Shown one piece after another: positions 1 through 16,772 of a stretch of DNA of 64,000 nt. Within the stretch, counting starts at the first letter, position 1. Each line of letters starts with the position of its first letter. Both the position numbers and the translations under genes were made by a program. A model generated the notes under the pieces. That model ran no database searches. It worked only from the letters and a program-made list of their open reading frames with translations, and was not told the origin of the DNA. The stretch is from the NCBI GenBank assembly GCA_003164095.1, contig PLRX01000089.1, positions 1 through 64,000 of the forward strand, in the 5' to 3' direction. This DNA comes from Acidimicrobiaceae bacterium (GTDB lineage Bacteria > Actinomycetota > Acidimicrobiia > Acidimicrobiales > RAAP-2).

Positions 1-1
1 C

Positions 2-1432: not shown

Positions 1433-1433
1433 C

Positions 1434-1754
1434 TCAGCTGACCGAGGTGCCAAAGTTGAAGGCCCAGGTGATGAGGAAGACCCCGGCGCCAATGATGACG
1501 GCCCCGGCGAAGGCGGCCAGCACCTTGTGCTGGGAGACCGAGGTCCGGTTGATGGACCCGTTCTGGACTCCCCACCACAGACCGGCACCGCCGATGATGA
1601 GGCCGAGCAGGCAGGCGTAGACGGCCCACTGTTCGATCCCGCCAAGGAAGGACTGAACCTGGGACGAGCCCGGGAGCGAGCCGTTCGGGGTGATGGTGAA
1701 GTTGGCAGCCAAGAGGGGTGAGGCGATGTTCGGAACAAACGACTGAGGGATCAT
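1434..1754 (-). CDS. Small two-TM membrane protein (DUF6112/TrbC-like)
   Basis: A 106-residue protein with a short exported-looking N-terminal segment and two hydrophobic helices (about residues 42-62 and 78-100). Small proteins of this shape directly precede the TrbL-like gene in actinobacterial conjugative elements (DUF6112 'integral membrane protein' family; VirB2/TrbC-like pilin or channel subunits elsewhere). It ends one base before the start of the TrbL-like gene, so the two are surely cotranscribed. The start ATG at 1754 is the first gene start after a 333-bp non-coding stretch, making it a likely head of the transfer operon. The family assignment is by pattern only. Confidence 0.65.
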   Translation of the reverse strand: MIPQSFVPNIASPLLAANFTITPNGSLPGSSQVQSFLGGIEQWAVYACLLGLIIGGAGLWWGVQNGSINRTSVSQHKVLAAFAGAVIIGAGVFLITWAFNFGTSVS

Positions 1755-2087
1755 TGGACCTCCGGGGCTCTGGGCGGGACCGTGCGTCCTCGCCGTCGCC
1801 CATGTTCCGGATCCACGTCACCCTCAACGTCACCCTGGTTGAAGAAGCCAGTGACCAGGGGCGTTGCTGAAGGCTCGGACGTCACCCTCGCGCCAGCAAG
1901 TGGTGCATGGGTTGTTGAGGTGACGTCGAAGTCACCTCAAGCGGTGAGATCCCAGCGCCTGGACGTCCTCAGCGTTCTCGGTGATCAACATGCCGGTTCG
2001 TACGACCGGATCAAACCCAAGGCGGCTGAAAGGGAACCAGGTGCAACTCGGCGACCATGCCATCATTTGGTTGGCCTCGAGGCCGGC
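1755..2087. other. Non-coding stretch upstream of transfer genes
   Basis: No convincing gene is present; the longest frame here has no coding character. The stretch holds three copies of CGTCACCCT (1816-1824, 1828-1836, 1880-1888) in the same orientation, a smaller CCTGGT/ACCAGG inverted repeat around 1834-1859, and the long palindrome at 1915-1940. It probably contains the promoter and control sites for the leftward transfer genes. Confidence 0.5.
1915..1940. promoter_or_regulatory. 26-bp near-perfect palindrome, candidate operator
   Basis: Arms TTGAGGTGAC and GTCACCTCAA are perfect 10-base complements around a 6-base centre; counting the centre, 24 of 26 positions are palindromic. There is no T-tract, so a terminator is unlikely. 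It lies about 160 bp upstream of the leftward membrane-protein operon and about 150 bp beyond the 3' end of the AbrB-like gene, which fits an operator for a dimeric regulator of transfer. Confidence 0.45.
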
Positions 2088-2357
2088 CTAGATGGCCACC
2101 CACCCCTTGCGAAAGATTTCGTTCATGCTCTCTTCGTTCAGGATGACGAGCGATCCGGGTCGGTCGGGGTTGATGGTGATCCAAACAGAGTCACCTGGGC
2201 CTACCCCAATCGACTTGATCTGATCAGATGGCAGAGTGACCTGGTTCCTCTGCCCGATCACTCGAGGTCCGTCTGGGTGTGCATCCACCACTACAGGATA
2301 TGAAAGTTCATATCCTGTGTCGATGCCCCGCTGGCGCCACACTTCCGGGCGTGCCAC
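2088..2357 (-). CDS. AbrB/MazE-type DNA-binding protein
   Basis: An 89-residue protein. Residues about 30-75 match the swapped-hairpin AbrB fold: a segment reading QVTLPSDQIKSIGVGPGDSV corresponds to the family pattern of 'I-x-I/L-P-x-x-(8-9)-G-(8)-PGD'. AbrB/SpoVT/MazE proteins act as transition-state regulators or as antitoxins. No toxin gene is visible beside it, so a regulator of the transfer genes, transcribed in the same direction 333 bp further on, is the simpler reading. The N-terminal 30 residues are an unusual extension for the family. The SOS box at 2417-2430 lies 60 nt upstream of this start in the divergent region, so it could also influence this gene. Confidence 0.65.
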   Translation of the reverse strand: MARPEVWRQRGIDTGYELSYPVVVDAHPDGPRVIGQRNQVTLPSDQIKSIGVGPGDSVWITINPDRPGSLVILNEESMNEIFRKGWVAI

Positions 2358-2416
2358 GATGCGACCCGTGGCTGTCGGCGCGCTATCGGTGCAATGTCAC
2401 ACCCAGCCGTCAGAAT

Positions 2417-2430
2417 CGAACACATGTTCG
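2417..2430. promoter_or_regulatory. LexA (SOS) box 1
   Basis: CGAACACATGTTCG matches the actinobacterial/Gram-positive LexA consensus CGAAC-RNRY-GTTCG at every defined position. It is centred about 52 nt upstream of the start at 2476 and lies in the divergent region opposite the AbrB-like gene. A second perfect box lies 1.6 kb downstream. Confidence 0.8.
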
Positions 2431-2475
2431 TGACGGAGCAGCGCCGCAGCCATAACCATGCGAAGGGGACCTCTA

Positions 2476-2868
2476 ATGCCTGATGCGACCGCTCCGGAGC
2501 CTCAGTTCGCCACTTGCAAGTGTGAGGCAGCCGCTCAGCGGGCCGTGCTGGGTTATGAGGTTGCTGGTATCGCTGCCAGCATCGGACCCCTCGACCTGCC
2601 GAGACAGCGGGAGACAAGTTGCCGAGGTTGGGCGGTGACAGTTCCGAGCCTGGGTCGCGTTGAATGTGTTCTTGACTCCCGGGCGGATCTGAACGCTGTT
2701 GGCCCAGAGCTGGATCAACTGAGCAATGCGGGTTGGAGCGTTTGGGCGTTGGTGCCACTCGATCGCCTGTCGCGCGCCCACGAGGCGTTTCAGTCAGGCG
2801 TTGAGTTCGTTCAAGGCTGGTGGGAGAACAACGGGGCCATCGCCTTCACGGCGCCCGAAATCCCCTGA
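2476..2868 (+). CDS. Unknown 130-aa protein behind a LexA box
   Basis: I do not recognise the family. The protein is soluble, without signal peptide or membrane segment. It has a CxC pair near the N-terminus (Cys14, Cys16), two more cysteines near the middle, and a Trp-rich C-terminal part. ATG at 2476 is chosen over an in-frame ATG at 2458 because AGGGGA lies 7-8 bases before it. The SOS box is 45 nt upstream of the start. A HAD phosphatase gene begins 71 bp after the stop on the same strand, so the two are probably cotranscribed and damage-inducible. Base composition is lower in GC than the chromosome to the right, in keeping with acquired DNA. Confidence 0.6.
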   Translation: MPDATAPEPQFATCKCEAAAQRAVLGYEVAGIAASIGPLDLPRQRETSCRGWAVTVPSLGRVECVLDSRADLNAVGPELDQLSNAGWSVWALVPLDRLSRAHEAFQSGVEFVQGWWENNGAIAFTAPEIP

Positions 2869-2939
2869 TCCACAGCGTGGATGTCCTACCGTGGAGTTAG
2901 AGTCGCGATTTCGAGTCGGCTTCTGACGAACGGCAGGTC

Positions 2940-3884
2940 ATGGCACAGGCCATCTATACGCAGACGACCATCGCCATGGTCTGGGATTTTGACAAGACGC
3001 TGATCCCCGGGTACTCCCAGAAACCGATCTTTGAAGAGTACGGAATCGATGAAGCGCGTTTCTGGCGCGAAGTAAACGGCCTCGAGGACCTCTACCGGCG
3101 CCGGGATCTGCTCGTAGCCAAGGACACCGCGTATTTGCTCCACATGCTCTCGTACGTCAGAGAGGGAGCGATGGCCGGTCTCACCAACTCAAAGCTTGTC
3201 GAGCTTGGTGCCCGGATCGAGATGTGCCCTGGGATTCCTGACTTTCTCCCCCACATTCAGGAGCTCGTTGCATCTGACGATCGCTTCGCCAGCCACGGAA
3301 TCTCGGTCGAGCACTACATCGTCTCGACTGGGATCAGGCACCTGATCGAAGGCAGTTCCGTAAGCGCGCACGTTCAGAAGATCTGGGCCAACGAGTTCGT
3401 CGATCAACCTCCCGGCCCAGGCTACGACCCGGCCACCCATGAGTTTGAGGCAAATGATGGAGTGATTGCCCAAGTTGGGTACATGATCGACAACACCTCC
3501 AAAACCAGGGCCATCTTTGAGATCAACAAGGGTCCTGATGTCGAGGTGAATGCTCGGATGGCCGAAGAAGAGAGAAAAGTCCCGATAAAGAACATGATCT
3601 ACATTGCCGATGGGCCGAGCGATGTCCCTGTGTTCTCTGTCGTGGGCGTGAACGGGGGAAGGCGCCTCGGCGTCTATCAGACGGCGGAGCCCTCGAACTT
3701 CGAAGGAGTCAAGCAACTCGAGGACGATGCGAGGGTCGACAGCATTGCAGAGGCGAACTTCATGCAGGGTACGCAAGCGTGGAGGTGGCTTACGTCCGAA
3801 GTCCGACGAATTGGGACAAGGATCTGCGACGATCGAGATCGCTACCTCGCCGCCGTGAAGGCTCCTGCCGGGCACATCACCTAA
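2940..3884 (+). CDS. HAD-family phosphatase
   Basis: A 314-residue haloacid-dehalogenase-superfamily protein. Motif I is WDFDKT (nucleophile Asp16, acid/base Asp18), motif II is the Ser/Thr of IVST near residue 123, and motif IV is ADGPSDVPVF around residue 225, giving an intact Mg-dependent phosphohydrolase site. The long cap between motifs I and II is typical of the uncharacterised DFDKTLIPGY family. The substrate is unknown. It follows the SOS-boxed 130-aa gene and precedes the ubiquitin-like operon, all on the same strand, so it may supply a phosphatase activity to a damage- or phage-responsive system; that role is inference from location. Confidence 0.8.
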   Translation: MAQAIYTQTTIAMVWDFDKTLIPGYSQKPIFEEYGIDEARFWREVNGLEDLYRRRDLLVAKDTAYLLHMLSYVREGAMAGLTNSKLVELGARIEMCPGIPDFLPHIQELVASDDRFASHGISVEHYIVSTGIRHLIEGSSVSAHVQKIWANEFVDQPPGPGYDPATHEFEANDGVIAQVGYMIDNTSKTRAIFEINKGPDVEVNARMAEEERKVPIKNMIYIADGPSDVPVFSVVGVNGGRRLGVYQTAEPSNFEGVKQLEDDARVDSIAEANFMQGTQAWRWLTSEVRRIGTRICDDRDRYLAAVKAPAGHIT

Positions 3885-4032
3885 CCGAGACAATCTCGAG
3901 GATCGGCTGGCACGACTTCGACCAGGTCCGGTCAGATCGAAAGTTGCGAAGTCTCCTGCCGGCGGTTGCGGAGCCATGGATCGAATCCCAAGCATGACGG
4001 CCCTGCCTTCCCCTACCACCCCCTGAGCCGTA

Positions 4033-4046
4033 CGAACACGTGTTCG
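4033..4046. promoter_or_regulatory. LexA (SOS) box 2
   Basis: CGAACACGTGTTCG is a perfect palindrome and a full match to the LexA consensus. It lies 48 nt upstream of the ATG of the ubiquitin-like gene at 4095. TAAGCT just after it (4049-4054) could be a -10 element, which would place the operator between -10 and -35. It strongly suggests LexA repression of the three-gene operon. Confidence 0.85.
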
Positions 4047-4094
4047 TGTAAGCTCTGAGTGGTCGGCGTGTGTCGATCGGTCAGGAGAAATGAG

Positions 4095-4367
4095 ATGCCC
4101 CCGGAAGAAGAGACTCAGGCCCATCCGGACCGGTTCGAGATCGTCGTCGACACCGTCGAGCACACCGTGCACGCCGCCGAAGTGAGTTGGAAGCATGTCG
4201 TGGATATCGCGTACCCGGGCCAGGCCGACGACCCGCAATACGTCTTCAAGGTCCAATACGAGGACGCCAGGAGCCATCCCACGTCGGGGACGCTGGTGAA
4301 GGGTCATCACGTAACCGTCGAGCGGAGTGGAACCACATTCAGTGTCCTTCGATCCGTGGTCTCGTAG
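4095..4367 (+). CDS. Ubiquitin-like protein (multiubiquitin family)
   Basis: A 90-residue protein, one beta-grasp domain spanning about residues 13-87. It starts FEIVVDTVEHTVHA, has a central helix (SWKHVVDIA), then a strand pair and the family-typical turn SGTLVKGHHVTV before the last strand. This is the pattern of prokaryotic multiubiquitin-family domains (PF14452), here a single copy. The C-terminus is RSVVS with no di-glycine, so conjugation through a GG tail is not expected unless it is processed differently. ATG at 4095 is chosen because AGGAG lies 7 bases upstream; a GTG at 4059 has no such site. It overlaps the downstream E1-like gene by about 25-40 bases and is the first gene behind LexA box 2. 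Confidence 0.8.
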   Translation: MPPEEETQAHPDRFEIVVDTVEHTVHAAEVSWKHVVDIAYPGQADDPQYVFKVQYEDARSHPTSGTLVKGHHVTVERSGTTFSVLRSVVS

Positions 4368-5526
4368 TCCCGACTTAGCGAGGCTCATCGCAGCGGGCTA
4401 CGAGCTGGAGTTGACAGGCGACGGCTACCTGCTCGTACGCAACATCCCGTACTTGGACGAACATCAATCGATCCAACGGGGATCGGTGGTCTCAAAGTTG
4501 GAATTGAATGGTGACGTGACGGTCAATCCAGTGGCTGACCACGTCGCGTATTTCGTGGGCACAACACCACATCGGTGGAACGGCGAGCAGCTGACGCCGC
4601 TGGCCGGTGCCAATCTTGTGCTCGCCGATGGTCGGATTGCTCAGTTTTCGATGTCGCTCAAGTGCCCGACGGAGGATCGCTACCCCGACTACTTCTCGAA
4701 GATCGAGTACCACGTGCAGAACATCGAGAATGAAGCGAAGCAACTCGATGCGGCGGTGACCTCGCAGACGTTCGGCCCATGCATCATCAAGAACGATGAG
4801 TGGCCTTTCGAATATGCCGACACCGCCAGTGGACGTGCGGGAATCGGTGCAACTAACGGACGCCTCGCCGGCCAGAAGATCGCCATTGTTGGCCTCGGCG
4901 GCACCGGCTCCTACATTCTTGATCTCGTCGCGAAGTGTCCGGTTGCCGAAATCCATCTCTACGATGGGGACCGCTTCTCAAGTCATAATGCCTTCCGCTC
5001 GCCCGGAGCGGCGAGCCTGGATGAGGTTCGAATCGGTAGACCGAAGGTCGAACGCTATGCGGAAATCTATTCGCAACTGAAGCGCAGGATCACACCCCAC
5101 CCCTACAACATCGATGCCGCGAATGTCTCAGAACTCGCAGCGTTCGACTTCGTCTTCCTGGCCATGGAGGGAGGAGCGACAAAACTCGCGATCGTCGAAG
5201 CGTTGGAAAACATGGGCAAGCCATTCGTCAATGCCAGCATGGGTGTCAAGAAGCCCGGCGACGGCGACCAGCTTCAGGCAGTCGTTGAAGTGAATGGAAG
5301 CACTGTCGACAACCGTGACAGTTTTCGGCAGACGGTCGACTTCGGGGAGGTTGATCCGGACGATCCGTACCTTGAGAACATTCAGGTTGCCGAACTCAAT
5401 GCCCTCAACGCGACGATGGCCGTTCTCTGGTGGAAGAAGTGGGCGGCGATCTACGTGAGCAACAAGCCAAATTTCGGAATGCTCATTGACACCTACCTCG
5501 ACGTATACACGACGTACCGTTCGTGA
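4327..5526 (+). CDS. E1-like DUF6791-ThiF adenylating protein
   Basis: A protein of about 399 residues. Residues 17-165 fit the DUF6791 domain that precedes ThiF domains in ubiquitin-like operons. Residues 180-399 are a ThiF/E1 adenylation domain: GLGGTGS (189-195), the DGD nucleotide motif (213-215), Asn221, Arg224 and Lys240. It should adenylate the C-terminus of the neighbouring ubiquitin-like protein. The only cysteines are 113, 152 and 204; none follows residue 204, where E1 enzymes carry their catalytic cysteine, so thioester transfer by this protein is doubtful. The start is GTG at 4327 or GTG at 4342, both inside the upstream gene, implying translational coupling. The stop overlaps the next start. 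Confidence 0.85.
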   Translation: MEPHSVSFDPWSRSPDLARLIAAGYELELTGDGYLLVRNIPYLDEHQSIQRGSVVSKLELNGDVTVNPVADHVAYFVGTTPHRWNGEQLTPLAGANLVLADGRIAQFSMSLKCPTEDRYPDYFSKIEYHVQNIENEAKQLDAAVTSQTFGPCIIKNDEWPFEYADTASGRAGIGATNGRLAGQKIAIVGLGGTGSYILDLVAKCPVAEIHLYDGDRFSSHNAFRSPGAASLDEVRIGRPKVERYAEIYSQLKRRITPHPYNIDAANVSELAAFDFVFLAMEGGATKLAIVEALENMGKPFVNASMGVKKPGDGDQLQAVVEVNGSTVDNRDSFRQTVDFGEVDPDDPYLENIQVAELNALNATMAVLWWKKWAAIYVSNKPNFGMLIDTYLDVYTTYRS

Positions 5527-5933
5527 TGTCTACGATCACCGAAGTCACTTACGCCTTCGTCGACTCAGCTCCGGGGCAGCTGGAGCCAGGCAAGATCTAC
5601 ATCTCCACGAGGTACCGTGCGATCGTCCACCTCTGCCTTTGCGGGTGCAACGAGAAGGTTCTACTCAGACTTGATCCAGGCGAGTGGAGCTTCACCTTCG
5701 ATGGCCGAACAATCTCCATTCACGATTCCGTTGGCAACGTCGGGCTGCCTTGCCGATCGCACTACTTTGTGCGACGGAACCGGGTCCATTGGTTACCACC
5801 ACTTCTCGAAGTCGATCCTGAGGTGGCACTGGGTCAGAGATCCGCTCGCGACGAACAGAGCGAGAGGTCGACAACAAGGAGCTTTGCTCGCTGGTTCCGT
5901 CGGCGCCGATCCCGCCCTCCAGAAAACGCTTGA
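5526..5933 (+). CDS. DUF6527 (BubE-like) protein
   Basis: A 135-residue protein with the DUF6527 signature: a CLCGC cluster (Cys37, 39, 41), the segment SIHDSVGN (64-71), and CRSHYFV (Cys76, Ser78, His79), which together look like a metal-binding or catalytic centre. DUF6527 proteins accompany E1/ubiquitin-like operons; from memory the family has been linked to removal of conjugates in bacterial ubiquitination-like (Bub) pathways, which I could not check. The C-terminal 35 residues are Arg/Ser-rich and probably disordered. ATG at 5526 overlaps the E1 stop (TGATG), so the three genes form one operon. No E2 or JAB gene follows; the next gene is convergent. Confidence 0.75.
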   Translation: MSTITEVTYAFVDSAPGQLEPGKIYISTRYRAIVHLCLCGCNEKVLLRLDPGEWSFTFDGRTISIHDSVGNVGLPCRSHYFVRRNRVHWLPPLLEVDPEVALGQRSARDEQSERSTTRSFARWFRRRRSRPPENA

Positions 5934-5984
5934 GATGCTGGTCGCCGCGACACATGAATAACGCTCAGGCTCAGGACCAGACCA

Positions 5985-7226
5985 TTAGCGCTCTGGTGGA
6001 GGACACTCGATACCTGCGATCTGCATGAGCGCACAGAACGTGTCACGAGCTACCTTCCACTCGCCGTCGACGAGGACGGCGCGACCCTGTCGCCCGCGGA
6101 TCATCGGGGTGCCGCTAAAAGGCCCGGAGATGGTGAGGGAGAACACGACGCGGGCCTCGTGGTCATTCACAAATCGCAAGCCATCGACCTTCACCGATCG
6201 CTGGGACGGATCCTGGTCGATGCTGTGGCGTTGACCAGCAGCGAGAAGTGCCTCCCCGAGATTGGCACCTCCTTCGACGGCCGGGATGGAGCCGTCCGCT
6301 TCGTCGACATCGAGCATGCGTGCGAATGCGTCCTCGACGGCAGATCGGGCAGCTGATTCATCGTCTGGAGGTGGGCCAGGGATCGACGACCCGGGGGGAC
6401 CTTGAGGAGTGATCAGCTGGCTCAGCACGGACGAGTCCTGCTTTGGGCCAGGCTCCTGCTGTCGAAGTGCTCGAAGAGTCGCAGCCTGTTCGGATGTGAT
6501 GCCCTGTGACCGTTGCTCTACCGCTTCTTGTGAACTGAGCCCGGCGCCGATCCAATCAGCCACTTCCGCAAAAGGGATTCCGGCCGCCCACCACTCGCGG
6601 ATGACATCCCCTGGGCCGCGACCCTGGATGGCCAAGCGCCCAGCTTCGCCCGGAGTGAGGCCGAGGGCGTGCCACGTGTACGCGTCGGCGGCTTCGATCC
6701 CCATCGCTGCCCATCGCTGAGCTTCCTCATCCAGCCATTGTCTCTGGAGGTAGCCGTGCATGACCCTGGGGTCTCCACGTAGCAATCCACCTGCCATCAC
6801 CTGGCTACCGGTGACCGAAGGTGTCCGGCTGATCCAGGCGCTGGAGCCGAAAGAAGAACTCCGCGACCTGGACTGAGCCTGGGCTTGAGTGAAGGCTTCG
6901 ACTGGACCCAAGCCCTTCGCCTTTTCGGCCGATGCGGTGTCGATGTCGTAACCCATCTCGTGCCACAGGGCAGCTTCCGAGGAGTCGATCCCGGCGTCGC
7001 GCCATGCCTGGATGGTCGTGGGGTCCACCCCTGCCGCCATCCATTGGGCGGCTTCGAGACCCTCCGTCACTCCCTGTTGAATCCATGCTTCTGCACGAGC
7101 GATAGTGAAGCGCCAACTGCGCCAGATCTCGGCGTCACTGGGTTCGAATCCGGCTGCAATCCAGGCTTCCAACTGCTCAGGTTTGCTGTCGTCGGGTTCG
7201 GAGGCATCCACTCGTGTTCGCATCAC
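5985..7226 (-). CDS. W-repeat protein with MTB12/NTF2-like C-terminal domain
   Basis: A 413-residue soluble protein. Residues about 18-255 contain roughly eleven copies of a 13-residue unit of the form W-x-x-x-G-hydrophobic-x4-A-x-x-W, in two blocks separated by a Ser/Gln/Arg-rich linker. A Pro-rich hinge follows, then a C-terminal domain (about 285-413) ending in DGEWKVARDTFCALMQIAG, which resembles the SnoaL/NTF2-like fold of mycobacterial MTB12-type proteins. There is no signal peptide. It begins 13 bp after the VWA gene and is the last gene of the moxR-VWA operon, so it is probably a scaffold, client or effector of that pair. Function unknown. Confidence 0.7.
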   Translation of the reverse strand: MMRTRVDASEPDDSKPEQLEAWIAAGFEPSDAEIWRSWRFTIARAEAWIQQGVTEGLEAAQWMAAGVDPTTIQAWRDAGIDSSEAALWHEMGYDIDTASAEKAKGLGPVEAFTQAQAQSRSRSSSFGSSAWISRTPSVTGSQVMAGGLLRGDPRVMHGYLQRQWLDEEAQRWAAMGIEAADAYTWHALGLTPGEAGRLAIQGRGPGDVIREWWAAGIPFAEVADWIGAGLSSQEAVEQRSQGITSEQAATLRALRQQEPGPKQDSSVLSQLITPQGPPGSSIPGPPPDDESAARSAVEDAFARMLDVDEADGSIPAVEGGANLGEALLAAGQRHSIDQDPSQRSVKVDGLRFVNDHEARVVFSLTISGPFSGTPMIRGRQGRAVLVDGEWKVARDTFCALMQIAGIECPPPER

Positions 7227-7239
7227 TTGGACCTCGTGG

Positions 7240-8526
7240 TCACGCCGCGTCAGCCGCGCCGATGTCGATTGCTCGGGCCCACTCCGGGACGGACCCGCGC
7301 GGGTCCATCAGCCCGACGATCACGCGGATGCCCTTAGGCGCTGCCGCAGGCCATGGTGTGTGCCCGTCCGTCAGGACGACGATCAAGTCCGGCTTCGGGC
7401 GGAGCTCGGCCGCCTTGGCAAGCCCAACTCCCATGTCGGTTCCACCACCTCCGAGGAGGATGACGTCCTTGGCCTGCATCACCTTCTGCGCCTCGAAGGC
7501 CTCGGCATCGCAGCAGATGATGTCGAGCTGTCGACGTCCCACTCCCAGACTCCGGAGGACTCCGCCTACTTCCGCCAGGGACTGGGCGAGCATCCCGTCG
7601 TTCATGCTTCCCGAGGTGTCCAAGACCATGGCCACCTTCGGCAGAGGCTGGCGGAGACTCGGAAGGATCACGTCGCCCGAGATGGAGGACCGCCGAGATG
7701 GCTTGCGGTAGCTGAAGTCGACGCGACCGGCCACATCGGCCACGCCGCGACGCACTGCTGCAGCCAGTACCTGCTGCCATCGCACCGTCGGCTCGAGGAG
7801 TTCGCTGGCCCAGCGCTGCCAGCCGGCGGGCGTGTTCCCATAGAGCTGCTGGTGCTCTTTGATCTGCCGCGCGACCTCTCGCTCCAGGAGCTTCTGTGCT
7901 GCATCGGCGAGTCCTGAGCGATCGCTGTCCCAGGGCCGGCCCTGCCCGTCGCAGCCGCTCCCGCAATCTCCCTGGGACTGGTCATCCAGCCGCCCTGGTG
8001 GGAGCTGGAGATCCACAGCGCCCCCGAGGGCATCCCAATACTGTTCAGCGGTCCAACCGTCAGCGAGGCCAAGGGCGTGCGGAGTGACCGCGCCGTCCGG
8101 TCTCTTGGTTGTCCCAGCGACCAGATCATCGTTGATCTCCGCATCGGCCGCAGTGTTCCAACGTCGTTGGTCGGGATTGCCCTCGCTGACTGGTGCTTGA
8201 TGGCCGGACACCTCCCGGCATGGGAAGCGATCGCCATGGTGACGGAGCAAATGGCTGACCTGGTGGATCAACCAGAACCCCGTGGTCGGCACGTCCAACT
8301 CACTCATGACCTCAGGATCGAGGTACACATGCCACGACTGGTCGACGGGCAGCGCAGAGAGATCAAGTCGCTGGTCCGGGTGAAGGTCTAACTGGTCGAC
8401 GACGATGGGTTCGAGGGACAACAGAGCGCTCGCCATGTACGGCACCTGGTGCGCCGCCCACACGCGTGCGGCGGCCCACAGCCGCCGTTCTGTGGGACCC
8501 AACATGTCAAGCGATCCCTGTTTCAC
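7240..8526 (-). CDS. VWA-like protein with degenerate metallopeptidase domain (DUF2201-like)
   Basis: A 428-residue protein. The N-terminal part (about 10-230) resembles the putative metallopeptidase domain of DUF2201 proteins; its zinc motif reads HQVSH (88-92) in place of HExxH, so the catalytic Glu is lost. The C-terminal part (about 295-428) is a von Willebrand A-like domain with a complete MIDAS start, DTSGSM (303-308), and a later TDGH. VWA proteins of this type work with MoxR ATPases as chaperone or metal-insertion pairs. GTG at 8526 has GGGGAGGGG upstream and overlaps the moxR stop by 20 bases; an ATG at 8505 is the alternative start. Confidence 0.85.
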   Translation of the reverse strand: MKQGSLDMLGPTERRLWAAARVWAAHQVPYMASALLSLEPIVVDQLDLHPDQRLDLSALPVDQSWHVYLDPEVMSELDVPTTGFWLIHQVSHLLRHHGDRFPCREVSGHQAPVSEGNPDQRRWNTAADAEINDDLVAGTTKRPDGAVTPHALGLADGWTAEQYWDALGGAVDLQLPPGRLDDQSQGDCGSGCDGQGRPWDSDRSGLADAAQKLLEREVARQIKEHQQLYGNTPAGWQRWASELLEPTVRWQQVLAAAVRRGVADVAGRVDFSYRKPSRRSSISGDVILPSLRQPLPKVAMVLDTSGSMNDGMLAQSLAEVGGVLRSLGVGRRQLDIICCDAEAFEAQKVMQAKDVILLGGGGTDMGVGLAKAAELRPKPDLIVVLTDGHTPWPAAAPKGIRVIVGLMDPRGSVPEWARAIDIGAADAA

Positions 8527-9619
8527 CTGGCCCCTCCCCGCTCAGAAGTCCTGCCGCTCGCAGGACGGGAGCGATCTCCAAGAGTCCACTCGGGAGCTCC
8601 GCTCCATCCGGGCGTGCTCCGGCCAACGCGCGCGCCGCCAGCGTGGCCACATCGGGTGCTTTCACGGCCACTCTCGCCACAACGCGCCATGCCGCGCTCC
8701 AGGATGCCGCATCCCCGTGGGCAATGGCGACGGTGGCGACAGCCGTCAAGACTGCGAAGGCTCGGTCGCTTCGTTCGGGAAGTTCGAAGCCGTCCGGATC
8801 GGCCAGGACCGCCTCAGGATCAGGCAAGTCCATGTTGGCCAGCCACGATAGGAACTCGATACCGGCGCCCTCGCCGACCGCGCCGATGACCAGGTGCATC
8901 CGGGCGCTTTCCGATGCGCCCACGGCATCACAGGTGGCGAGCAGCGTGGCCACCGAATCCCAGCTGCGAGGGCTCGGCCATCCTCGTCCAGCCTGATCGG
9001 CGATCTGGGGCACCTGGAGTGCCAGTGCCGGCCGCACCTCCAGAAACGCTCCGACGGCCGCCCTCACGGCCAGAGTCTGGGCATCGGACGGCGTGTGCCC
9101 CTCAAATACGGGCGGCGCACCGAAGCCCATGGCGATGCCCTTGGCCACGGCCTTCGCATCAACAGGCCAGTCCAGGTGGACCAGGCGATTCGCCAGGGGT
9201 GCTGACAGCTGCCATCCGTCGGCCGCCTCCTCGGGGGGATTGGCAGCTGCCACCACGCGGACGCTCTCGGGAAGGGCGAGATCGCCGACCACCCGCTCAA
9301 GCACGACCCGAAGCATTGCCGCCTGCACTGCGGGCGGGGCTGTCGTCAACTCGTCCAAGAAGAGCAGGCCGTGACCGGACGCGGCCAGCCTCCTCGCCCA
9401 GAGCGGCGGTGCCATCTGGACGGCCCCATCGATCACAACCGGTAGGCCGGCAAAGTCGGCAGGCTCGCGGATAGAGCCGATCACGACTTCGGTCGGCCAG
9501 CCAAGGGCCTCACCGAGAGCGCGTACGACCGATGTCTTGCCCGTGCCAGGACTCCCCCAGAGAAGAACCGGTACACCCGCCTGGACCGAGATGGACAGGG
9601 CCTCACTCACTGATGACAC
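8507..9619 (-). CDS. MoxR-family AAA+ ATPase
   Basis: A 370-residue AAA+ protein of the MoxR branch: Walker A GSPGTGKT (22-29), Walker B LLFLDEL (85-91), sensor-like Asn in AAANPPEE near residue 126, and an arginine-finger region around ANRLVHLDW. It is a cytosolic ATP-driven remodelling factor whose partner is the VWA protein encoded immediately downstream with overlap. First gene of the leftward three-gene operon. MoxR/VWA sets have been described both as maturation chaperones and as cores of NTP-dependent conflict systems; the position in a mobile element next to a ubiquitin-like operon favours the latter, without proof. Confidence 0.9.
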   Translation of the reverse strand: MSSVSEALSISVQAGVPVLLWGSPGTGKTSVVRALGEALGWPTEVVIGSIREPADFAGLPVVIDGAVQMAPPLWARRLAASGHGLLFLDELTTAPPAVQAAMLRVVLERVVGDLALPESVRVVAAANPPEEAADGWQLSAPLANRLVHLDWPVDAKAVAKGIAMGFGAPPVFEGHTPSDAQTLAVRAAVGAFLEVRPALALQVPQIADQAGRGWPSPRSWDSVATLLATCDAVGASESARMHLVIGAVGEGAGIEFLSWLANMDLPDPEAVLADPDGFELPERSDRAFAVLTAVATVAIAHGDAASWSAAWRVVARVAVKAPDVATLAARALAGARPDGAELPSGLLEIAPVLRAAGLLSGEGPGETGIA

Positions 9620-9829
9620 GTCGATCGCAACTCACCTCCACTGCCCATTGTTCCAGATGCATGGCTTGAACCGTCCTGAACAGGGCAGCGTGCATTGCAT
9701 TCTGAATGTCAGGGGATTCCGCCGCTCCGTCTCGGTGATGACACCGGGGCTGCGATCACACTGACCTGGGCGTTCACCGAATCGGGTCGGCTTTAGGCGG
9801 AGACTCGCGGAGCCTCGGTCAATAAGACA

Positions 9830-10690
9830 TCAAGAGCTCGGCGAGTCGGCTTTGAGCGAGTACACGATCGTGACCTGGGCGCTGGCCTGTTGGGACCCCA
9901 CTTCCAGAGGAACGGCGGACGACTGGGCGGAGGTCCCCGCGGCGGAGTTGAAACCCGGGCTGGGCTGTGAGATTGGCGTCGTGTCTGTCAGCGAGCACAC
10001 CGGTCCGAGCCGTTCACTTGCGGATGCGGCCATAGTTTGGGCGTGGCTCACCGCCTGGTGAACTGCATCGGTCCGGGCATGGTCCTCGAGATTTCGGGTG
10101 TCCTTGATCGAGAAGGTTGCGGAGTTGATCTGGCCAGCATTCCCGGCGGCCCCGGAGACCGCGTCGATAACACTCCCAGCGGATGCAAGGTTGGTGATCA
10201 TTGCGGTGACGCTGTTATTGACGCCGTACCCGGTGAGCACCTCAGTTCCGTTCTTGAGTGTGTAGTTCGGTTGGACGCTTAGACCTGTCGTCTGGATGTT
10301 CTGTTTCGTCACCCCGCCGGCAGCGAAGGCCGCGATCACCGCCGCCGCAGCGGTGTTGTTGGACGCCAGGGCGGCCTGGGCCGTTGCCCCGGTCGTCGAG
10401 ATGGTGATGTCCACCGTGAGGGTGTCGGGAGTACCGGTCGCAACACCGGTTCCCTGAACCGTCAGCTTCGCTGAATTGGGGGAGCACCCCGGCACGCTCG
10501 CAGTCGAAGTGCTCCCTGTCGCACATCCGGTCGCAACGACGCCGGCCAGACCGACGGCGGCGATACCAACCGCGACGAAGTGATGGCGTCGCCCTGCAGT
10601 GCGTATCCGGGCAGGCACCTGAGCCTTAGTATCCGGGTCGACACCAGATCTACCTGGCACCTCAGATGTGTCGTCGGCGGTGTCGGACAT
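9830..10690 (-). CDS. SIMPL (DUF541) domain secreted or membrane-anchored protein
   Basis: A 286-residue protein with an N-terminal cytoplasmic stretch of about 35 residues, one hydrophobic helix ending in a possible lipobox (VVATGC), then a SIMPL/DUF541 domain (about 70-286) recognised by LTVQGTGVATGTPDTLTVDI and the later ITNLASAGSVIDAVSG region. SIMPL proteins are extracytoplasmic and mostly uncharacterised. ATG at 10690 is chosen because AAGGAA lies at good distance; the frame extends further upstream without support. It is 37 bp downstream of the anti-sigma-like gene on the same strand and is probably a target or part of that operon. Confidence 0.75.
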   Translation of the reverse strand: MSDTADDTSEVPGRSGVDPDTKAQVPARIRTAGRRHHFVAVGIAAVGLAGVVATGCATGSTSTASVPGCSPNSAKLTVQGTGVATGTPDTLTVDITISTTGATAQAALASNNTAAAAVIAAFAAGGVTKQNIQTTGLSVQPNYTLKNGTEVLTGYGVNNSVTAMITNLASAGSVIDAVSGAAGNAGQINSATFSIKDTRNLEDHARTDAVHQAVSHAQTMAASASERLGPVCSLTDTTPISQPSPGFNSAAGTSAQSSAVPLEVGSQQASAQVTIVYSLKADSPSS

Positions 10691-10727
10691 GCCAATTCCT
10701 TCTTTCTGTGCTCGGGAGTGGAATTGA

Positions 10728-11558
10728 TCAACGGGATACGACGACAACCATGAACCACTGGTTCGGGACCTCGGCACACGACGGGGAAACGGTCGTGGCC
10801 TGCTGGTGCGATGCGGGTGGACAGGCGCTGGCGAGGGTTGCCGTGATCACCACATCACCAGGCTTAATGGCTTCGAAGACTGAGCTGCCCGACTGTCTCG
10901 CTCCATTTCGGGCCCTTCCCACCGCCCGCATGACGCCCGGATGAGTTCGGGACACACTTACAGGTAGTTCCTGGTGGAGCGTTGCCGAGAGACTTGAGGC
11001 GGAGGCGACGATCGGTGCCCCCCAGGACCCCGCTTTCGTCGCGGGCAGGCTGAGAGTGACCCGCTGGCCAACCTTGACGGTGACCGATGCCGGGGACGAC
11101 GTGACACCCGACGCGCCTGCAGCGCTGTTGGCACTGGCGAATCCTTGGATGACGGCTGCGGTAGCGAAGAACGCCCCGGCGCACCGGGACACTCCCGATT
11201 CCACGCTCACGGAGACGCATTCCGACTCGGTGCCCGCCCCCGATGGAGTGCCCACACTTGACGAGGGTCCGGAGGTAGCGGTGGAGCCTCCCACTGTAGG
11301 CGTCGGCACACGCGGGCCGGAGCCCGATGCCACCCGATTGTCCGTTCTTGCCGTAGTGGAGAGCACGCCGGTTCCCACTACCACCGCGATGATCGCAGCC
11401 ACGGCGCACCCGATCGTCGCCACAGTGCGGTGTCGCTTCACACGACGACGGCTGACATCGCCCATGAGTTCATTCGCGGAAGACCCCTTCGGCTGCCATG
11501 CCGACGAAACTTCGTCCATGGCTCTACGGAGCCGCGAGTCCAAGTCATCGGTTGTCAT
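10728..11558 (-). CDS. Membrane protein, probable anti-sigma factor
   Basis: A 276-residue protein with a cytoplasmic N-terminus of about 45 residues, one membrane helix (about 46-68), a Ser/Thr/Gly-rich linker and an extracytoplasmic domain (about 110-276). Its start overlaps the sigma gene stop by ATGA, the usual arrangement of ECF sigma and cognate anti-sigma. The N-terminal part lacks an obvious HxxxCxxC zinc motif. The external domain presumably senses an envelope signal. Assignment rests on topology and position. Confidence 0.6.
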   Translation of the reverse strand: MTTDDLDSRLRRAMDEVSSAWQPKGSSANELMGDVSRRRVKRHRTVATIGCAVAAIIAVVVGTGVLSTTARTDNRVASGSGPRVPTPTVGGSTATSGPSSSVGTPSGAGTESECVSVSVESGVSRCAGAFFATAAVIQGFASANSAAGASGVTSSPASVTVKVGQRVTLSLPATKAGSWGAPIVASASSLSATLHQELPVSVSRTHPGVMRAVGRARNGARQSGSSVFEAIKPGDVVITATLASACPPASHQQATTVSPSCAEVPNQWFMVVVVSR

Positions 11559-12181
11559 AGCTCATCCCTTTCGAGGCTCATGGAGCCGAGCATCGCCGAC
11601 AAGGAGGCGCGTGCTTTCGCCAGCTGGGACTTCACGGTCCCCACGCTGCAGCTAAGAATCCTGGCGATCTCGGCTTCAGGAAGATCCTCGTAGTAGCGGA
11701 GGATCACCGTTTCGCGTTGACGGGGCGGGAGACCACGGACTGCATCCATGACAATGAGGGAGTCGTCCGACGCAAGGGTGGTATCGGTGTCCGATCCTTC
11801 CGTCGACTGGCGATCGGGATCACTTGCGTAGATCCTGCGATTTGACCGGTCCTCGGTGCCACGTCGGCGAAGCCGCGACCTACACAGGTTGATGACAGCC
11901 GTCCGGAGGTACCAATGGGCACGCTCAAGGTGTCGGATCCGCCACCAATTCGAGAATGTTCGCAGGAATGCCTCTTGGACGACCTCTTCGGCTCCTCCGC
12001 GGTCACCGAGCAGGAGCGCCGCCAAACGGCACAATCCGTCGTAGTGCGTGACGAATAGATCTGCGATCTGCTCGTCACGATCGGATCTGGAGTCGTTCAC
12101 CGCGACATTCGTCCGATGATGGGCCCCGGCACCCAATTCAGCATTTGCCAGCGCCGGCAGCGGAACTCCCATACCTTCCAC
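11555..12181 (-). CDS. ECF RNA polymerase sigma factor (SigE-like)
   Basis: Up to 208 residues. Sigma region 2 lies around DLFVTHYDGLCRLAALLLGD and the following EEVVQEAFLRTF; region 4 is the C-terminal part with LPPRQRETVILRYYEDLPEA and ILSCSVGTVKSQLAKA helix-turn-helix. It directs RNA polymerase to a small regulon, probably including its own operon with the anti-sigma-like and SIMPL genes. The real start may be GTG at 12100, since the first 27 residues precede the sigma fold. This is the last gene before the att site, so the regulon is part of the mobile element. Confidence 0.85.
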   Translation of the reverse strand: MEGMGVPLPALANAELGAGAHHRTNVAVNDSRSDRDEQIADLFVTHYDGLCRLAALLLGDRGGAEEVVQEAFLRTFSNWWRIRHLERAHWYLRTAVINLCRSRLRRRGTEDRSNRRIYASDPDRQSTEGSDTDTTLASDDSLIVMDAVRGLPPRQRETVILRYYEDLPEAEIARILSCSVGTVKSQLAKARASLSAMLGSMSLERDEL

Positions 12182-12764
12182 GACGCACGGGGGTCCGGAA
12201 ACGTTGCCCGCGACGTCACCAAAGGCACCTGGACACGCTCAGGCCTTCAGCCACGCATCACGTCGAGTCACCTGGAACAGCCAAGGCCGCCCACCTATTC
12301 GATGGTCCATCGTCCTGCACCATCTCATCCAGGTCCACTCGGATGGCGCGCCTGTCTCCCGGCGGGGGGAGGCAGGCGGCCCTGCTTCGGATCAAGGCAG
12401 GTGGCGGAACCCACTCCCCGAAGAGGTAAGCCCAACCTATCGTGTGCCGAAGTCAGTTGGCGAGCGAGTGGCACCAGGGGAGCCCAATCGATCGGAAGGT
12501 ACGGTACGCGCTGCTTGTGTGGTCGTAGCTCAGCGCTGACACCGCCGTAGGACAACAAGGGTTGATTCAAAACAGTCGGAGCCGGGCGCCAGTTGGGGGA
12601 CCTCAGTCCGCCATTCCTGAGGGCAATCAGCCAGATCCTGTCCTATAAAATGTCCTACAAACAGCGCCGTTAGCTGTCGTCGGATACCTTCCCCGTCGCC
12701 CATCATCGCAGGTCAGAACGTTGCGCACCGTCCGATGTCTGCCATAACGTAGCCTTGGGACGAA
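12182..12764. other. Non-coding stretch at the end of the mobile element
   Basis: No gene is supported; the open frames here are Arg/Pro/Ser-rich shadows. The stretch separates the sigma factor gene from the tRNA fragment. Its right part contains three copies of TGTCCTA described separately. No integrase or excisionase gene is found on this side. Confidence 0.5.
12548..12657. repeat. TGTCCTA repeats near the att site
   Basis: TGTCCTA occurs at 12639-12645 and 12651-12657, exactly 12 bp apart, and in reverse orientation at 12548-12554. Short direct and inverted repeats 100-250 bp inside the core site are the usual arrangement of integrase or excisionase arm-binding sites. The assignment is inferred from position and spacing. 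Confidence 0.4.
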
Positions 12765-12806
12765 CTGATAATGCTGAGGTCACAAGTTCGATTCTTGTTA
12801 GCCCCA
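12765..12806 (+). other. tRNA-Ile(GAT) 3' fragment, probable attR of integrative element
   Basis: The sequence reads as the 3' half of a tRNA: anticodon loop CTGATAA (anticodon GAT), stem strand TGCTG, variable region, T-arm with ACAAG/CTTGT stem and TTCGATT loop, acceptor strand TAGCCCC and discriminator A. The matching 5' half (GGGGCTA..., D-arm and the CAGCA stem strand) is absent upstream. A 3'-half copy of a tRNA is what a tyrosine recombinase leaves at the distal end of an element integrated into that tRNA. The intact tRNA-Ile should be at the other end, left of this window. Confidence 0.75.
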
Positions 12807-12939
12807 CTCGATTTTCCCTGATCAGCACCAGTTGCTGCGGAAGAGCCGCTCAGCGGATCCGACTCCATGCCCCGGGGTGCGGCTGGCAGTCCAGGATCCC
12901 GGTCGTCGACCGTCACGGCGTCAGGATTAGGGTCCGCCC

Positions 12940-13563
12940 ATGGCCCCGGCACGCGAGTTCGTCCTTTTCGACCTGGGTGGTGTCCTGGTCGAATTGCGGG
13001 GCGTGACGACGATGCCCGAATTCGCCGGGATCGACGACGAGCAGGAGCTGTGGCGCCGTTGGCTCGGCTGCAGGTGGGTCCGCCGGTTGGAGAGCGGGGA
13101 CTGCGACCCCGAAGCATTCGCCCAGGATGTGGTCGACGACTGGCACCTGGCGGTTGGGCCCGAGGAATTCCTGGCGATGTTCGCATCGTGGCCGGTAGGG
13201 CCGTTGGTCGGGGCAGAGGACCTGGTGCGACGGACAGCTGCGGAGGTGCCCGTCGGGTGTCTCTCCAACACGAACGTGCTCCATTGGGACGGCAACGCCG
13301 AGCACTGGCCGTTGATGGAGGTGTTCGCTCACCGGTTCCTGTCACACCGAATGGGCGAGGTGAAGCCCGACGCCGTGGCGTTCGCCCGAGTCGCCGAGGA
13401 ACTGGCACTCCCGACCGACCGGATCCTGCTCCTGGACGACAACCAGGTGAACGTCGACGGGGCGCGTGCCGCCGGCTTCCAGGCGGAGCGGGTGCTCGGC
13501 GTAGGCGAGGCCCACCGTGTGTTGGGACTGGCCAGAGTGCTCCATCGCGGTCCTCAGGGCTGA
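12940..13563 (+). CDS. HAD-IA family phosphatase (YihX-like)
   Basis: A 207-residue HAD hydrolase with a small helical cap. Motif I is FDLGGVLVE (nucleophile Asp; the usual second Asp is Gly, as in YihX-like sugar-phosphate phosphatases), motif II is SNT near residue 109, motif III Lys is in GEVKPD and motif IV is LLLDDNQVNV. It probably acts on a small phosphorylated metabolite. It is the first gene to the right of the att fragment, so it marks the host chromosome. Confidence 0.8.
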   Translation: MAPAREFVLFDLGGVLVELRGVTTMPEFAGIDDEQELWRRWLGCRWVRRLESGDCDPEAFAQDVVDDWHLAVGPEEFLAMFASWPVGPLVGAEDLVRRTAAEVPVGCLSNTNVLHWDGNAEHWPLMEVFAHRFLSHRMGEVKPDAVAFARVAEELALPTDRILLLDDNQVNVDGARAAGFQAERVLGVGEAHRVLGLARVLHRGPQG

Positions 13564-13767
13564 AGGGACCGTATCGGTAGGTCGGGGCACTGCCGTGTCT
13601 GCCGGCGCGCCACCGGGGCCAGGGTGACTATCCGGACGTCCCGGACTTGGGTGGCCCGAGCCCGATGAAGGCGGGCGCCCGGTCCGCATGCCCGGGCGGG
13701 CAGGGCGGCGCCTCGGGCGTTCGACCGGTCTCCTGCGGGACCCTGACGCCGAGCAGTCGTCCCCACG

Positions 13768-15339
13768 TCACAGCAGGCTGGGAATCACGGCCTCCACCAC
13801 GCTGGGCCCCGGGGTGGCGAGGGCACGCCCCAGTTCGTCGGCGAATTGCTCGGTCGTCTCGGCCCGGGCAGCGTGGAGCCCGAGGCCCTGGGCCAGTGGG
13901 ACGAACCCGATGTCAGGACGACCCAGGTCGAGCATGTCGCGGGCACGCGGCCCGGGCTCGGCGGCACCCACCCGGTCGAGCTCCATGTTCAGCACGGCGT
14001 AGGAGTGGTTGTTGAGGATGACGGTGGTCACGTCGAGGCCCTCGCGGGCCATGGTCCACCACGCCTGGATCGTGTAGAGGGCGCTGCCGTCGGCCTCGAG
14101 CGCCACCACCCTGCGGCTCCGGTCGGCAACGGCGGCGCCGACGGCCACCGGTAGGCCCTGTCCGATGGCCCCGCCGGTCAGGCACAACCAGTCGTGGGGC
14201 GGAGCGCCGGCCGTGGCTCCCGGGGCGAACAGACCAGAGGTGTTCCCCTCGTCGGACACCACCGCCCCCTCGGGGAGCAGCGCACCGAGCGTTTGGCACA
14301 CGGTCTGGGCCGACAACGCGCCGGTGGCCGGTGCGGGCCGCTCGGCCTGTTGGCGTGGTGCGGCCCCGGCCGTGGCGCCGACCAGGTCGGCCAGGGCGTC
14401 GACGGCCCCTGGCAGATCGTCGCCCGGGCCCGCCACCGGGTGCACGGTGCACCCGGTGGGCACCAGGTCACTCGGCTTACCCGGATAGGCGAAGAAGGAG
14501 ACCGGCGACTTGCCGTCGAGGAGGATCAGGTGGCGGATGCCGTCGAGGCGCATCATCGCGAACTCCGCCAGGTAGCCGAGGCGCTCCACCGGCGGACGAC
14601 CGGCACCCCGCTCGAGCTTCGCCGGGAACGTCTCGCACAGGAGCTCGGCGCCGGTCGAGGTGGCCAGATCGGCGACTGCGTCGAGCAGGGGGCCCGAGCA
14701 CGCGCGGCCGCCGATGAAGACGGCGCAGCGCTCGCCCGAGCGGAGGGCCGCCGCAGCCGCCTCGAGTACGTCCTGGTCGGGGGCGGTGCCGCCACCGGGG
14801 CCGGTGCCCACGCCGCCCGACGCATCCACGGGCACGCCGCCCTCCGACCACGAGACGTCGGCCGGGAGGATCAGGGTGGCCACAGCCCCGGGCGGCCCGA
14901 AGGCGGCGGCCAGGGTGTCCCGGGCGTCCGCGCCGACCTGTTCGGTCGACTCGGTGGTCCGGACGAACCTGGAGACGTTGCGGGCGACGGTGGCGATGTC
15001 CGACTGGAGCTGGGCGTCATACGGGCGGTGGGACAGGGCGTGGTCGCCCACGATGTTCACGACGGGGCTGTGGGCGCGGCGGGCATTGTGGAGGTTGGCG
15101 AGTCCGTTCCCCAGTCCGGGCCCGAGATGGAGGAGGGTGGACGCGGGCCGTCCGGCCACGCGGGCGTACCCGTCGGCGGCACCGGTGGCCACCCCCTCGA
15201 AGAGCGCGAGCACCCCGTGCATGCCCGGCTCGTCGTCGAGGGCGGCGACGAAGTGCATCTCCGAGGTGCCCGGGTTCATGAAGCAGGTGTCGACACCGTG
15301 GGCGGTGAGCGTGCGGATGAGGGACCGGGCACCGTTCAC
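13768..15339 (-). CDS. Thiamine-pyrophosphate enzyme (acetolactate synthase large-subunit-like)
   Basis: A 523-residue TPP enzyme. The N-terminal Pyr domain carries the catalytic Glu in ALFEGVATGAADGYARV (about 48), the central domain is degenerate in nucleotide contacts, and the C-terminal PP domain has the Mg/TPP motif GDG-like region LEADGSALYTIQAWW followed by NNHSY. Similar proteins annotate as acetolactate synthase large subunit or benzoylformate-decarboxylase-like; no small subunit is encoded here. It overlaps the upstream FAD dehydrogenase by ATGA, which suggests a joint pathway in 2-hydroxy- or 2-oxo-acid metabolism. Confidence 0.75.
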   Translation of the reverse strand: MNGARSLIRTLTAHGVDTCFMNPGTSEMHFVAALDDEPGMHGVLALFEGVATGAADGYARVAGRPASTLLHLGPGLGNGLANLHNARRAHSPVVNIVGDHALSHRPYDAQLQSDIATVARNVSRFVRTTESTEQVGADARDTLAAAFGPPGAVATLILPADVSWSEGGVPVDASGGVGTGPGGGTAPDQDVLEAAAAALRSGERCAVFIGGRACSGPLLDAVADLATSTGAELLCETFPAKLERGAGRPPVERLGYLAEFAMMRLDGIRHLILLDGKSPVSFFAYPGKPSDLVPTGCTVHPVAGPGDDLPGAVDALADLVGATAGAAPRQQAERPAPATGALSAQTVCQTLGALLPEGAVVSDEGNTSGLFAPGATAGAPPHDWLCLTGGAIGQGLPVAVGAAVADRSRRVVALEADGSALYTIQAWWTMAREGLDVTTVILNNHSYAVLNMELDRVGAAEPGPRARDMLDLGRPDIGFVPLAQGLGLHAARAETTEQFADELGRALATPGPSVVEAVIPSLL

Positions 15340-16772
15340 GGACGGGCTCCTTCCAGACGGGGGGCGGTCAGGACCTTCCCGGGGTTGAGGATGCCGGCGG
15401 GGTCGAACGCGTGCTTGATCCGGCGCATCAGGTCCAGCTTCACCGGATCCTCCAGGTCGGTGAACGACGCCAGCTTGGCCGTGCCGATGCCGTGCTCGCC
15501 CGACACGGCACCACCGTGCGCCATACCGGCAGCGAGGATGTCGTGGACCAGCCGGTGGCGCACGTCCGGGTCGGACTGGAAGACCGACAGGTGGACGTTG
15601 CCGTCACCCGCGTGCCCGCATCCGACCACCAGGGAGCCGGTGGCTGCGGCGAGGTCCCCCACGTCGGTCAGGTAGGTCGGGATCGACGCCCGGGGCACGA
15701 CCACGTCCACGATGTCGTCGGCCCCGGCGGCCTTGGAGGCCCAGAAGGCGTGCTCGCGCGCCGCGATCAGCTGGTGGCCGGCGTGGTCGGGCAGCACGTA
15801 GACGTCGAGGGCGCCGAGCTCGGCCAGCTGGCTCGCCAGCGCCTCGGTGTCCTCCTCGAGCCGTTCGGGATGATGGTCCTCGAGCACGATCACCAGGTAG
15901 GCGAGTGCGGCGGCTCGCACGTCCTCGGGGATGCCGAGGTCGATACCGGCGTTGGCGGTGATGCCGGCCATCGAGATCATGTCGATGTACTCGACCAGGA
16001 GCGGTCCGACGCCGCTGGCCACCACTGGCGGGACGGCCCCGGCCACCAGGTCCATGGTGGGGAACGGTGCCAGTACGGTGGCCTGGTGCTCCGGCCTCGG
16101 GTGGAGGCGGAGGATCGCCCGGGTCACCAGGGCGAGCGTGCCCTCGGACCCGATCACCAACTGGGTGAGGTCGTAGCCGCTGGTGGCCTTGACGAACTTG
16201 CCACCGGTCGAGATGACCTCGCCGGTGCCCAGGACGGCCTCGAGGCCGAGGACGTGGTGGCGGGTCACCCCGTACTTGACGGCCCGCATGCCGCCGGCGT
16301 TCGTCGAGATGTTGCCACCGAGGCTGGCCGACTGCTCCCCCGGGAACACGGGGTAGACCAGGCCGAGCGGTGTGAGGGCGGCGTCGAGCTCGGCAAGGGT
16401 GACCCCGGGCTCGACCACGGCGACCTGATTGGCCGTGTCGATCTCCAGGATGGCCGACATCCGCTCGAAGGAGACGACGACGCCGCCGGCTACGGGCACC
16501 GACCCGCCCGACAGCCCGGTGCCCGAGCCACGGGCGGTCAGCGGAATGCCGAGTTCGCAGGCCACGGTCACGACCGCAGCCACTTCGGTGGTGGTGGCGG
16601 GGCGGACCACAGCCCCCGGCCGGACCGGGTCCAGGCCGAGCGCCTCGTCGTGGCAGAGGTCGTCGGGTACGGCGGCGCCCACGTCGACGTGGGCCACTCC
16701 ACAGATGGCGGCCAGCCGGTCCCCGATCGTCGACTCCACCGTGCGCATACCTCCCCGGGCCTGTCTCGCCAC
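15336..16772 (-). CDS. FAD-linked 2-hydroxyacid dehydrogenase (GlcD/DLD-like)
   Basis: A 470-478 residue flavoprotein of the FAD-PCMH / FAD-oxidase C family: VRPATTTEVAAVV, the pyrophosphate-binding GSGTGLSGG, and the NISTNAGGMRAVKYGVTRHHVLGLEAVL stretch are all in their usual order, and the C-terminal half ends with HGIGTAKL. Members oxidise glycolate or D-lactate. A second start (ATG at 16748) is possible but has its Shine-Dalgarno too close. It heads a two-gene operon with the TPP enzyme, which could convert the 2-oxoacid product. Confidence 0.85.
   Translation of the reverse strand: MARQARGGMRTVESTIGDRLAAICGVAHVDVGAAVPDDLCHDEALGLDPVRPGAVVRPATTTEVAAVVTVACELGIPLTARGSGTGLSGGSVPVAGGVVVSFERMSAILEIDTANQVAVVEPGVTLAELDAALTPLGLVYPVFPGEQSASLGGNISTNAGGMRAVKYGVTRHHVLGLEAVLGTGEVISTGGKFVKATSGYDLTQLVIGSEGTLALVTRAILRLHPRPEHQATVLAPFPTMDLVAGAVPPVVASGVGPLLVEYIDMISMAGITANAGIDLGIPEDVRAAALAYLVIVLEDHHPERLEEDTEALASQLAELGALDVYVLPDHAGHQLIAAREHAFWASKAAGADDIVDVVVPRASIPTYLTDVGDLAAATGSLVVGCGHAGDGNVHLSVFQSDPDVRHRLVHDILAAGMAHGGAVSGEHGIGTAKLASFTDLEDPVKLDLMRRIKHAFDPAGILNPGKVLTAPRLEGARP

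Follow-up and report, generated by a model that had tools for sequence, protein, structure and literature searches.

Organization of the locus

The window (the whole 64-kb stretch of DNA that was analysed, starting where its contig starts) contains a fragment of a tRNA gene at 12764–12807, to the left and right of which the composition differs visibly, GC being 63.0% at 1–12763 vs. 69.9% at 13768–64000. The features needed to follow the argument are these (coordinates, strand, description and, in parentheses, grounds):

1–12763, no strand: visible right part of a probable inserted element, the left part of which would lie beyond the contig start (GC step; rarity in the genus; window begins at the contig start)
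2458–3884, plus: cargo pair of a small ORF (2458–2868) and a HAD-family gene (2940–3884), candidate defence family PDC-S34 (Pfam HAD, PADLOC PDC-S34)
4327–5933, plus: DUF6791-ThiF gene (4327–5526) and DUF6527 gene (5523–5933) (Pfam, NCBIfam)
7240–9619, minus: DUF2201/VWA gene and AAA ATPase gene (Pfam, PHROG)
12498–12763, plus: conserved noncoding right-end module, the putative P arm of attP (homologues in G004 and G008 continue into the same core with no tRNA behind it)
12547–12554, minus: inverted copy of TGTCCTAC
12639–12658, plus: pair of direct repeats, TGTCCTA-TAAAA-TGTCCTAC, putative arm-type sites of the integrase (a single C/T is all that varies here in the module alignment; similar pair in attL of the G004, G007 and G012 tRNA-Ile elements)
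12764–12807, plus: very probable attR, i.e., the displaced tRNA-Ile(GAT) 3' half from the anticodon loop to one base beyond the discriminator (44/44 identity, no 5' half)
12765–12771, plus: anticodon loop CTGATAA, which would serve as the 7-bp overlap in strand exchange (the identity block and the tRNA-Ile fragments of G017 and G057 begin here; role assigned from known integrases, PMC8371274)
13768–16772, minus: conserved chromosomal flank of acetolactate-synthase-like (13768–15339) and GlcD-like (15336–16772) genes (in G009 and G002 behind gyrA-tRNA-Ile and on the same contig)

Besides these genes, the visible part of the element encodes a SIMPL-domain protein and a SigE-family sigma factor, and its stretch 4000–12497 finds merely scattered short matches across 13 genomes of the genus. 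The initial annotation had pictured an acquired island of lower GC carrying transfer genes and conflict-type genes; the lower GC is borne out by the values above, and the conflict-type genes are confirmed by the Pfam, NCBIfam and PADLOC matches (PDC-S34 included). For the transfer genes no confirmation was obtained: the membrane protein at 2–1738 has no match to any Pfam, NCBIfam or PHROG family. The DUF6791-ThiF gene overlaps the DUF6527 gene and adjoins the HAD gene of the PDC-S34 pair, an arrangement possibly representing an E1-like conflict or defence operon.

A displaced 3' half of tRNA-Ile(GAT)

The sequence at 12764–12807 (ACTGATAATGCTGAGGTCACAAGTTCGATTCTTGTTAGCCCCAC) is identical at 44/44 positions to C44:1–44 (minus strand) of the same genome, where C44:1–75 (minus strand) is an intact tRNA-Ile(GAT) according to ARAGORN and the top-scoring tRNA of the assembly. 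Within the fragment, the T loop begins at 12787 and the discriminator A is position 12806. Neither ARAGORN nor Rfam found a tRNA in the 64-kb window, the fragment having no 5' half, and the 43-mer is present a single time in the window, even if up to 3 mismatches are allowed (chance expectation 0.00). The initial annotation's description of a tRNA-Ile(GAT) 3' half lacking the 5' half and marking the right end of an element thus agrees with the data, and the intact tRNA-Ile with an identical 3' end that it predicted does exist, but on another contig. The genome accordingly holds both an intact tRNA and a displaced fragment of that very tRNA, the fragment being the tRNA 3' end, correctly oriented and located downstream of the tRNA. 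On the right, the 44-bp identity stops where C44 ends, and the true repeat could be longer; as this contig edge coincides exactly with the tRNA-Ile 3' end, the left junction of the element is not assembled.

The displaced half has accumulated 0/44 changes (95% upper bound on divergence 6.6%), while the gyrA-tRNA DNA of G012, the nearest relative, is 13% different from that of the genome studied here, and the insertion is therefore probably younger than the split from G012, judging from these sequence comparisons.

The chromosomal side and the ancestral gene order

The DNA comprising gyrA and tRNA-Ile was searched against the genome itself and 60 relatives. Most genomes of the genus have gyrA-like DNA followed by tRNA-Ile, and two of them (G009 and G002) keep gyrA, tRNA-Ile and the right-flank genes of the window on a single contig and on the same strand, with ~3.4 kb between tRNA-Ile and the right-flank block in both and without the element seen in the window. 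For this reason, gyrA, tRNA-Ile and right flank look like the ancestral order, from which it would follow that 1–12763 is inserted DNA. The proposal that the fragment is the boundary between acquired DNA and the chromosome is hence well supported, the right flank lying behind gyrA-tRNA-Ile in relatives, and the left side being GC-poor and, at 4000–12497, nearly absent from the genus. No DNA of the genus matches the strip at 12808–13767 (960 bp, carrying a HAD-family gene), so that the chromosomal side is demonstrated only from 13768 onward; as other genomes of the genus have different genes between tRNA-Ile and the right flank, this strip is evidently variable.

Such variability of the DNA to the right of tRNA-Ile makes an accretion of old ends plausible, and the fragment could then be an old tRNA remnant that has nothing to do with the DNA to its left, e.g., the end of an earlier, lost element. 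We regard this as extremely improbable: a fragment under no constraint would hardly have stayed free of changes (0/44, as above) had it been sitting there for long by the measure of the G012 divergence, and it is abutted, precisely at the core, by the conserved end module.

tRNA-Ile and its integrases in related genomes

Separate tRNA-Ile 3' fragments were also found in G006, G017 and G057, those of G017 and G057 beginning at the same anticodon loop, and the one in G017 being 43/43 identical to its own tRNA; the contigs of G006 and G017 end right at the repeat. Tyrosine integrases are encoded directly behind tRNA-Ile, on the same strand, in G004, G007 and G008, and an integrase remnant is found there in G012. 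The G007 integrase has a Phage_integrase catalytic domain and an N-terminal SAM-like domain, and the gene pair beside it is homologous to the one at 2458–3884 of the window (38% and 61% identity), which indicates that elements at tRNA-Ile share cargo. Between tRNA-Ile and integrase, G004, G007 and G012 have TGTCCTAC-N4-GTCCTAA. The search of genome contigs matched G004, G007 and one distant relative, and viral contigs contained neither a match to the arm pair nor a relative of the integrase.

Two further observations concern tRNA loci of this group. In G032 (contig C148), the tRNA-Ile 5' half that comes after a gyrA-like gene is broken at the anticodon loop (CTGATAATG) and followed by non-tRNA DNA, and the gyrA-tRNA-Ile DNA search listed no intact tRNA-Ile for G032. 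The genome studied here has, at C149:1–1359, an integrase that shares ~75% identity with the G004 and G007 integrases, is located at tRNA-Val(CAC) and is accompanied by variant repeats TGCCCTACAGATGCCCTAC; this suggests that arm motif and target change together.

An integrase to the left of the fragment had been predicted as well. None is encoded in the window, the visible 12.7 kb of the element included (its left part is not assembled), and that portion of the prediction is less secure than the annotation put it; what speaks for it are the relatives with an integrase after tRNA-Ile. No integrase was found next to tRNA-Ile in the MAG itself, the MAG gave no hit to the expected attL arm pattern with up to 1 mismatch allowed, and a search for a neighbouring contig overlapping C109:1 found none. 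The lack of an integrase in the window and of the attL pattern in the MAG follows from the left part of the element being missing at contig edges. Several integrases of the same genome are found at other tRNAs (Val, Glu, Asn, Thr and Ser), and C67 has a truncated integrase at its edge. The integrase of the element itself probably belongs to the clade adjoining tRNA-Ile in G004, G007 and G012, and probably binds the paired TGTCCTA sites at 12639–12658.

The conserved right-end module

Six copies of the module, or of its right part, are present in G004 and G008 (72–92% identity), and all six run into the core AACTGATAAYGCTGAGG, after which no tRNA sequence follows. An integrase with 46% identity to that of G007 has its 3' end ~30 bp from one of these copies. 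In G008 C146 (L145 2971–4489), an intact tRNA-Ser(GCT) has an integrase gene on its 5' side, and the module follows ~30 bp behind the stop codon of that gene; in C148 of the genome studied here, an integrase occupies the same position relative to tRNA-Ser without the module.

The paired repeats of the window read TGTCCTATAAAATGTCCTAC and are presumed to be arm-type integrase sites because of their position and conservation. GTCCTA occurs 9 times in the 64 kb on both strands together, and 3 of these hexamers fall within 12498–12763, where 0.025 would be expected from the density elsewhere (Poisson P ~2.6e-6, for a motif taken from other genomes and a test set up after the window had been seen). 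A GGTCAG-type motif downstream of tRNAs was likewise considered and dismissed as too common (75 copies in the window).

As the six module copies enter the same core without a tRNA, the junction in the window is recombinant at this core, i.e., a hybrid in which a conserved element end on the left meets half of a host tRNA on the right, at the sequence common to both. A hybrid junction at a common core is predicted by site-specific recombination and not by random breakage. The arm-plus-core pattern was found in this window alone among 172 genomes of the family, none of the others joining a module copy to a tRNA half, and this counts against attR to some degree; it is also what one would see if a dispersed or free module copy had been joined to the tRNA-Ile 3' half during assembly, by way of the ~17–18 bp of core common to module and tRNA, the junction then existing in no cell. 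A metagenome-type assembly of 163 contigs and the exact termination of C44 at the tRNA end would suit such a chimera. We nevertheless deem it unlikely, given that the common core is shorter than the k-mers that assemblers commonly use, that the GC step and the cargo on the left fit an island, and that tRNA-Ile 3' fragments with the same start occur independently in G017 and G057.

Origin of the junction

All in all, 12764–12807 is very probably the attR of an integrative element (an island, IME or ICE) that resides in the tRNA-Ile(GAT) gene downstream of gyrA. This reading, at which the initial annotation had also arrived, is supported by the identical 3' half in the genome, the gene order of the relatives, the GC step and the rarity of 4000–12497; by the module recurring six times with its own core and without a tRNA; by the integrases after tRNA-Ile in G004, G007 and G008 and the remnant in G012, three of these loci having TGTCCTA pairs; and by the 3' fragments of G017 and G057 that begin at the same place. 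Against it count that the assembly contains neither the left junction nor an integrase for this element, and that the strip 12808–13767 lacks a DNA match in the genus.

As for the mechanism, a tyrosine integrase would pair the attP core ACTGATAAYGCTGAGG with the anticodon-loop region of tRNA-Ile, and strand exchange would take place in or near CTGATAA; tRNA-targeting tyrosine integrases commonly use the anticodon loop as the overlap region and the stems as core sites (PMC8371274). The original tRNA 3' half would thereby be displaced to the right end of the element, as the hybrid junction visible in the sequence suggests, and the 3' half of the C44 tRNA would be supplied by the left end of the element, restoring the tRNA. 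One could also imagine that the element has split tRNA-Ile without restoring it, the C44 tRNA then stemming from empty-site cells, and the fragment being the attR of an insertion that is disruptive or confined to a minority of cells. If the assembly graph forked here, C44 would presumably end at the tRNA end, as it does; the module copies elsewhere have the core alone behind them and no tRNA 3' half, and the tRNA-Ile of G032 is broken at the same loop. This, however, seems very unlikely to us: only one tRNA-Ile(GAT) was typed in the genome (not every tRNA being typed), its loss would therefore probably be lethal, and islands of tyrosine integrases normally restore their tRNA genes (PMC4383910).

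Comparison with known systems

With attR as the preferred reading, the case resembles the tRNA islands collected by Islander (PMC4383910) in having a 3' tRNA half at the far end, an intact tRNA elsewhere, a start at the anticodon loop and an integrase beside the tRNA (here in relatives); unlike in those, the tRNA is on one contig and the fragment on another, and the integrase of the element itself is missing from the assembly. Islander counts 2083 islands at the anticodon-loop subsite and 3760 with a 3' fragment (PMC4383910), and this kind of insertion is already well known, the present locus being a further case with an unusually clear conserved end. No paper combining Acidimicrobiia, ICE and tRNA turned up in the literature collection searched. 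The attP of phage lambda type (PMC8371274) is comparable in its core with repeated short sites ~105–125 bp away on one side and, in relatives, similar sites on the other side, whereas the arm sites proposed here are derived from conservation alone.

Integron attI/attC sites share with the locus a tyrosine recombinase, paired direct repeats beside a core and, near some module copies in relatives, imperfect palindromic repeats; unlike attC sites, however, these palindromes are irregularly spaced among ordinary multi-gene stretches. An integron reading of the module and the nearby palindromes was dropped on account of this irregular spacing in relatives and the absence of a palindrome from the window, and integron-integrase models scored far below their cut-offs for three related integrases.

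Mini-elements with the same end

The palindrome in question is dispersed, imperfect and at least 134 bp long, has about a dozen copies in the genome studied here and more in G008, usually keeps one orientation per contig (L188, L189, L191, L192 and L193 in the former; L195 and L196 in the latter) and is absent from the 64-kb window. In G004 C468 (L141 1592–2488) and G008 C126 (L195 5291–6079), it is split by a ~585-bp noncoding insertion that has the module as its right end and is flanked by imperfect repeats (ATGGGGTAACTGAATGCTGAGGAACC / ATGGACTGAATCCTCAGCAACC), the core of the split repeat resembling the tRNA-Ile anticodon region. Of the whole case, these mini-elements ending in the module are what departs most from the ordinary. 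That tyrosine integrases of tRNA islands mobilise such MITE-like mini-elements in trans, and into non-tRNA repeats, is a rather doubtful conjecture, and the mini-elements could serve to test the action of an integrase in trans on small noncoding elements.

For the lineage itself, the finding pins down the right end of an island that carries candidate defence genes in uncultured Acidimicrobiales, in which tRNA-Ile beside gyrA is a recurrent insertion site, and ties a conserved attachment-site arm to a clade of integrases, by which the missing left end becomes predictable.
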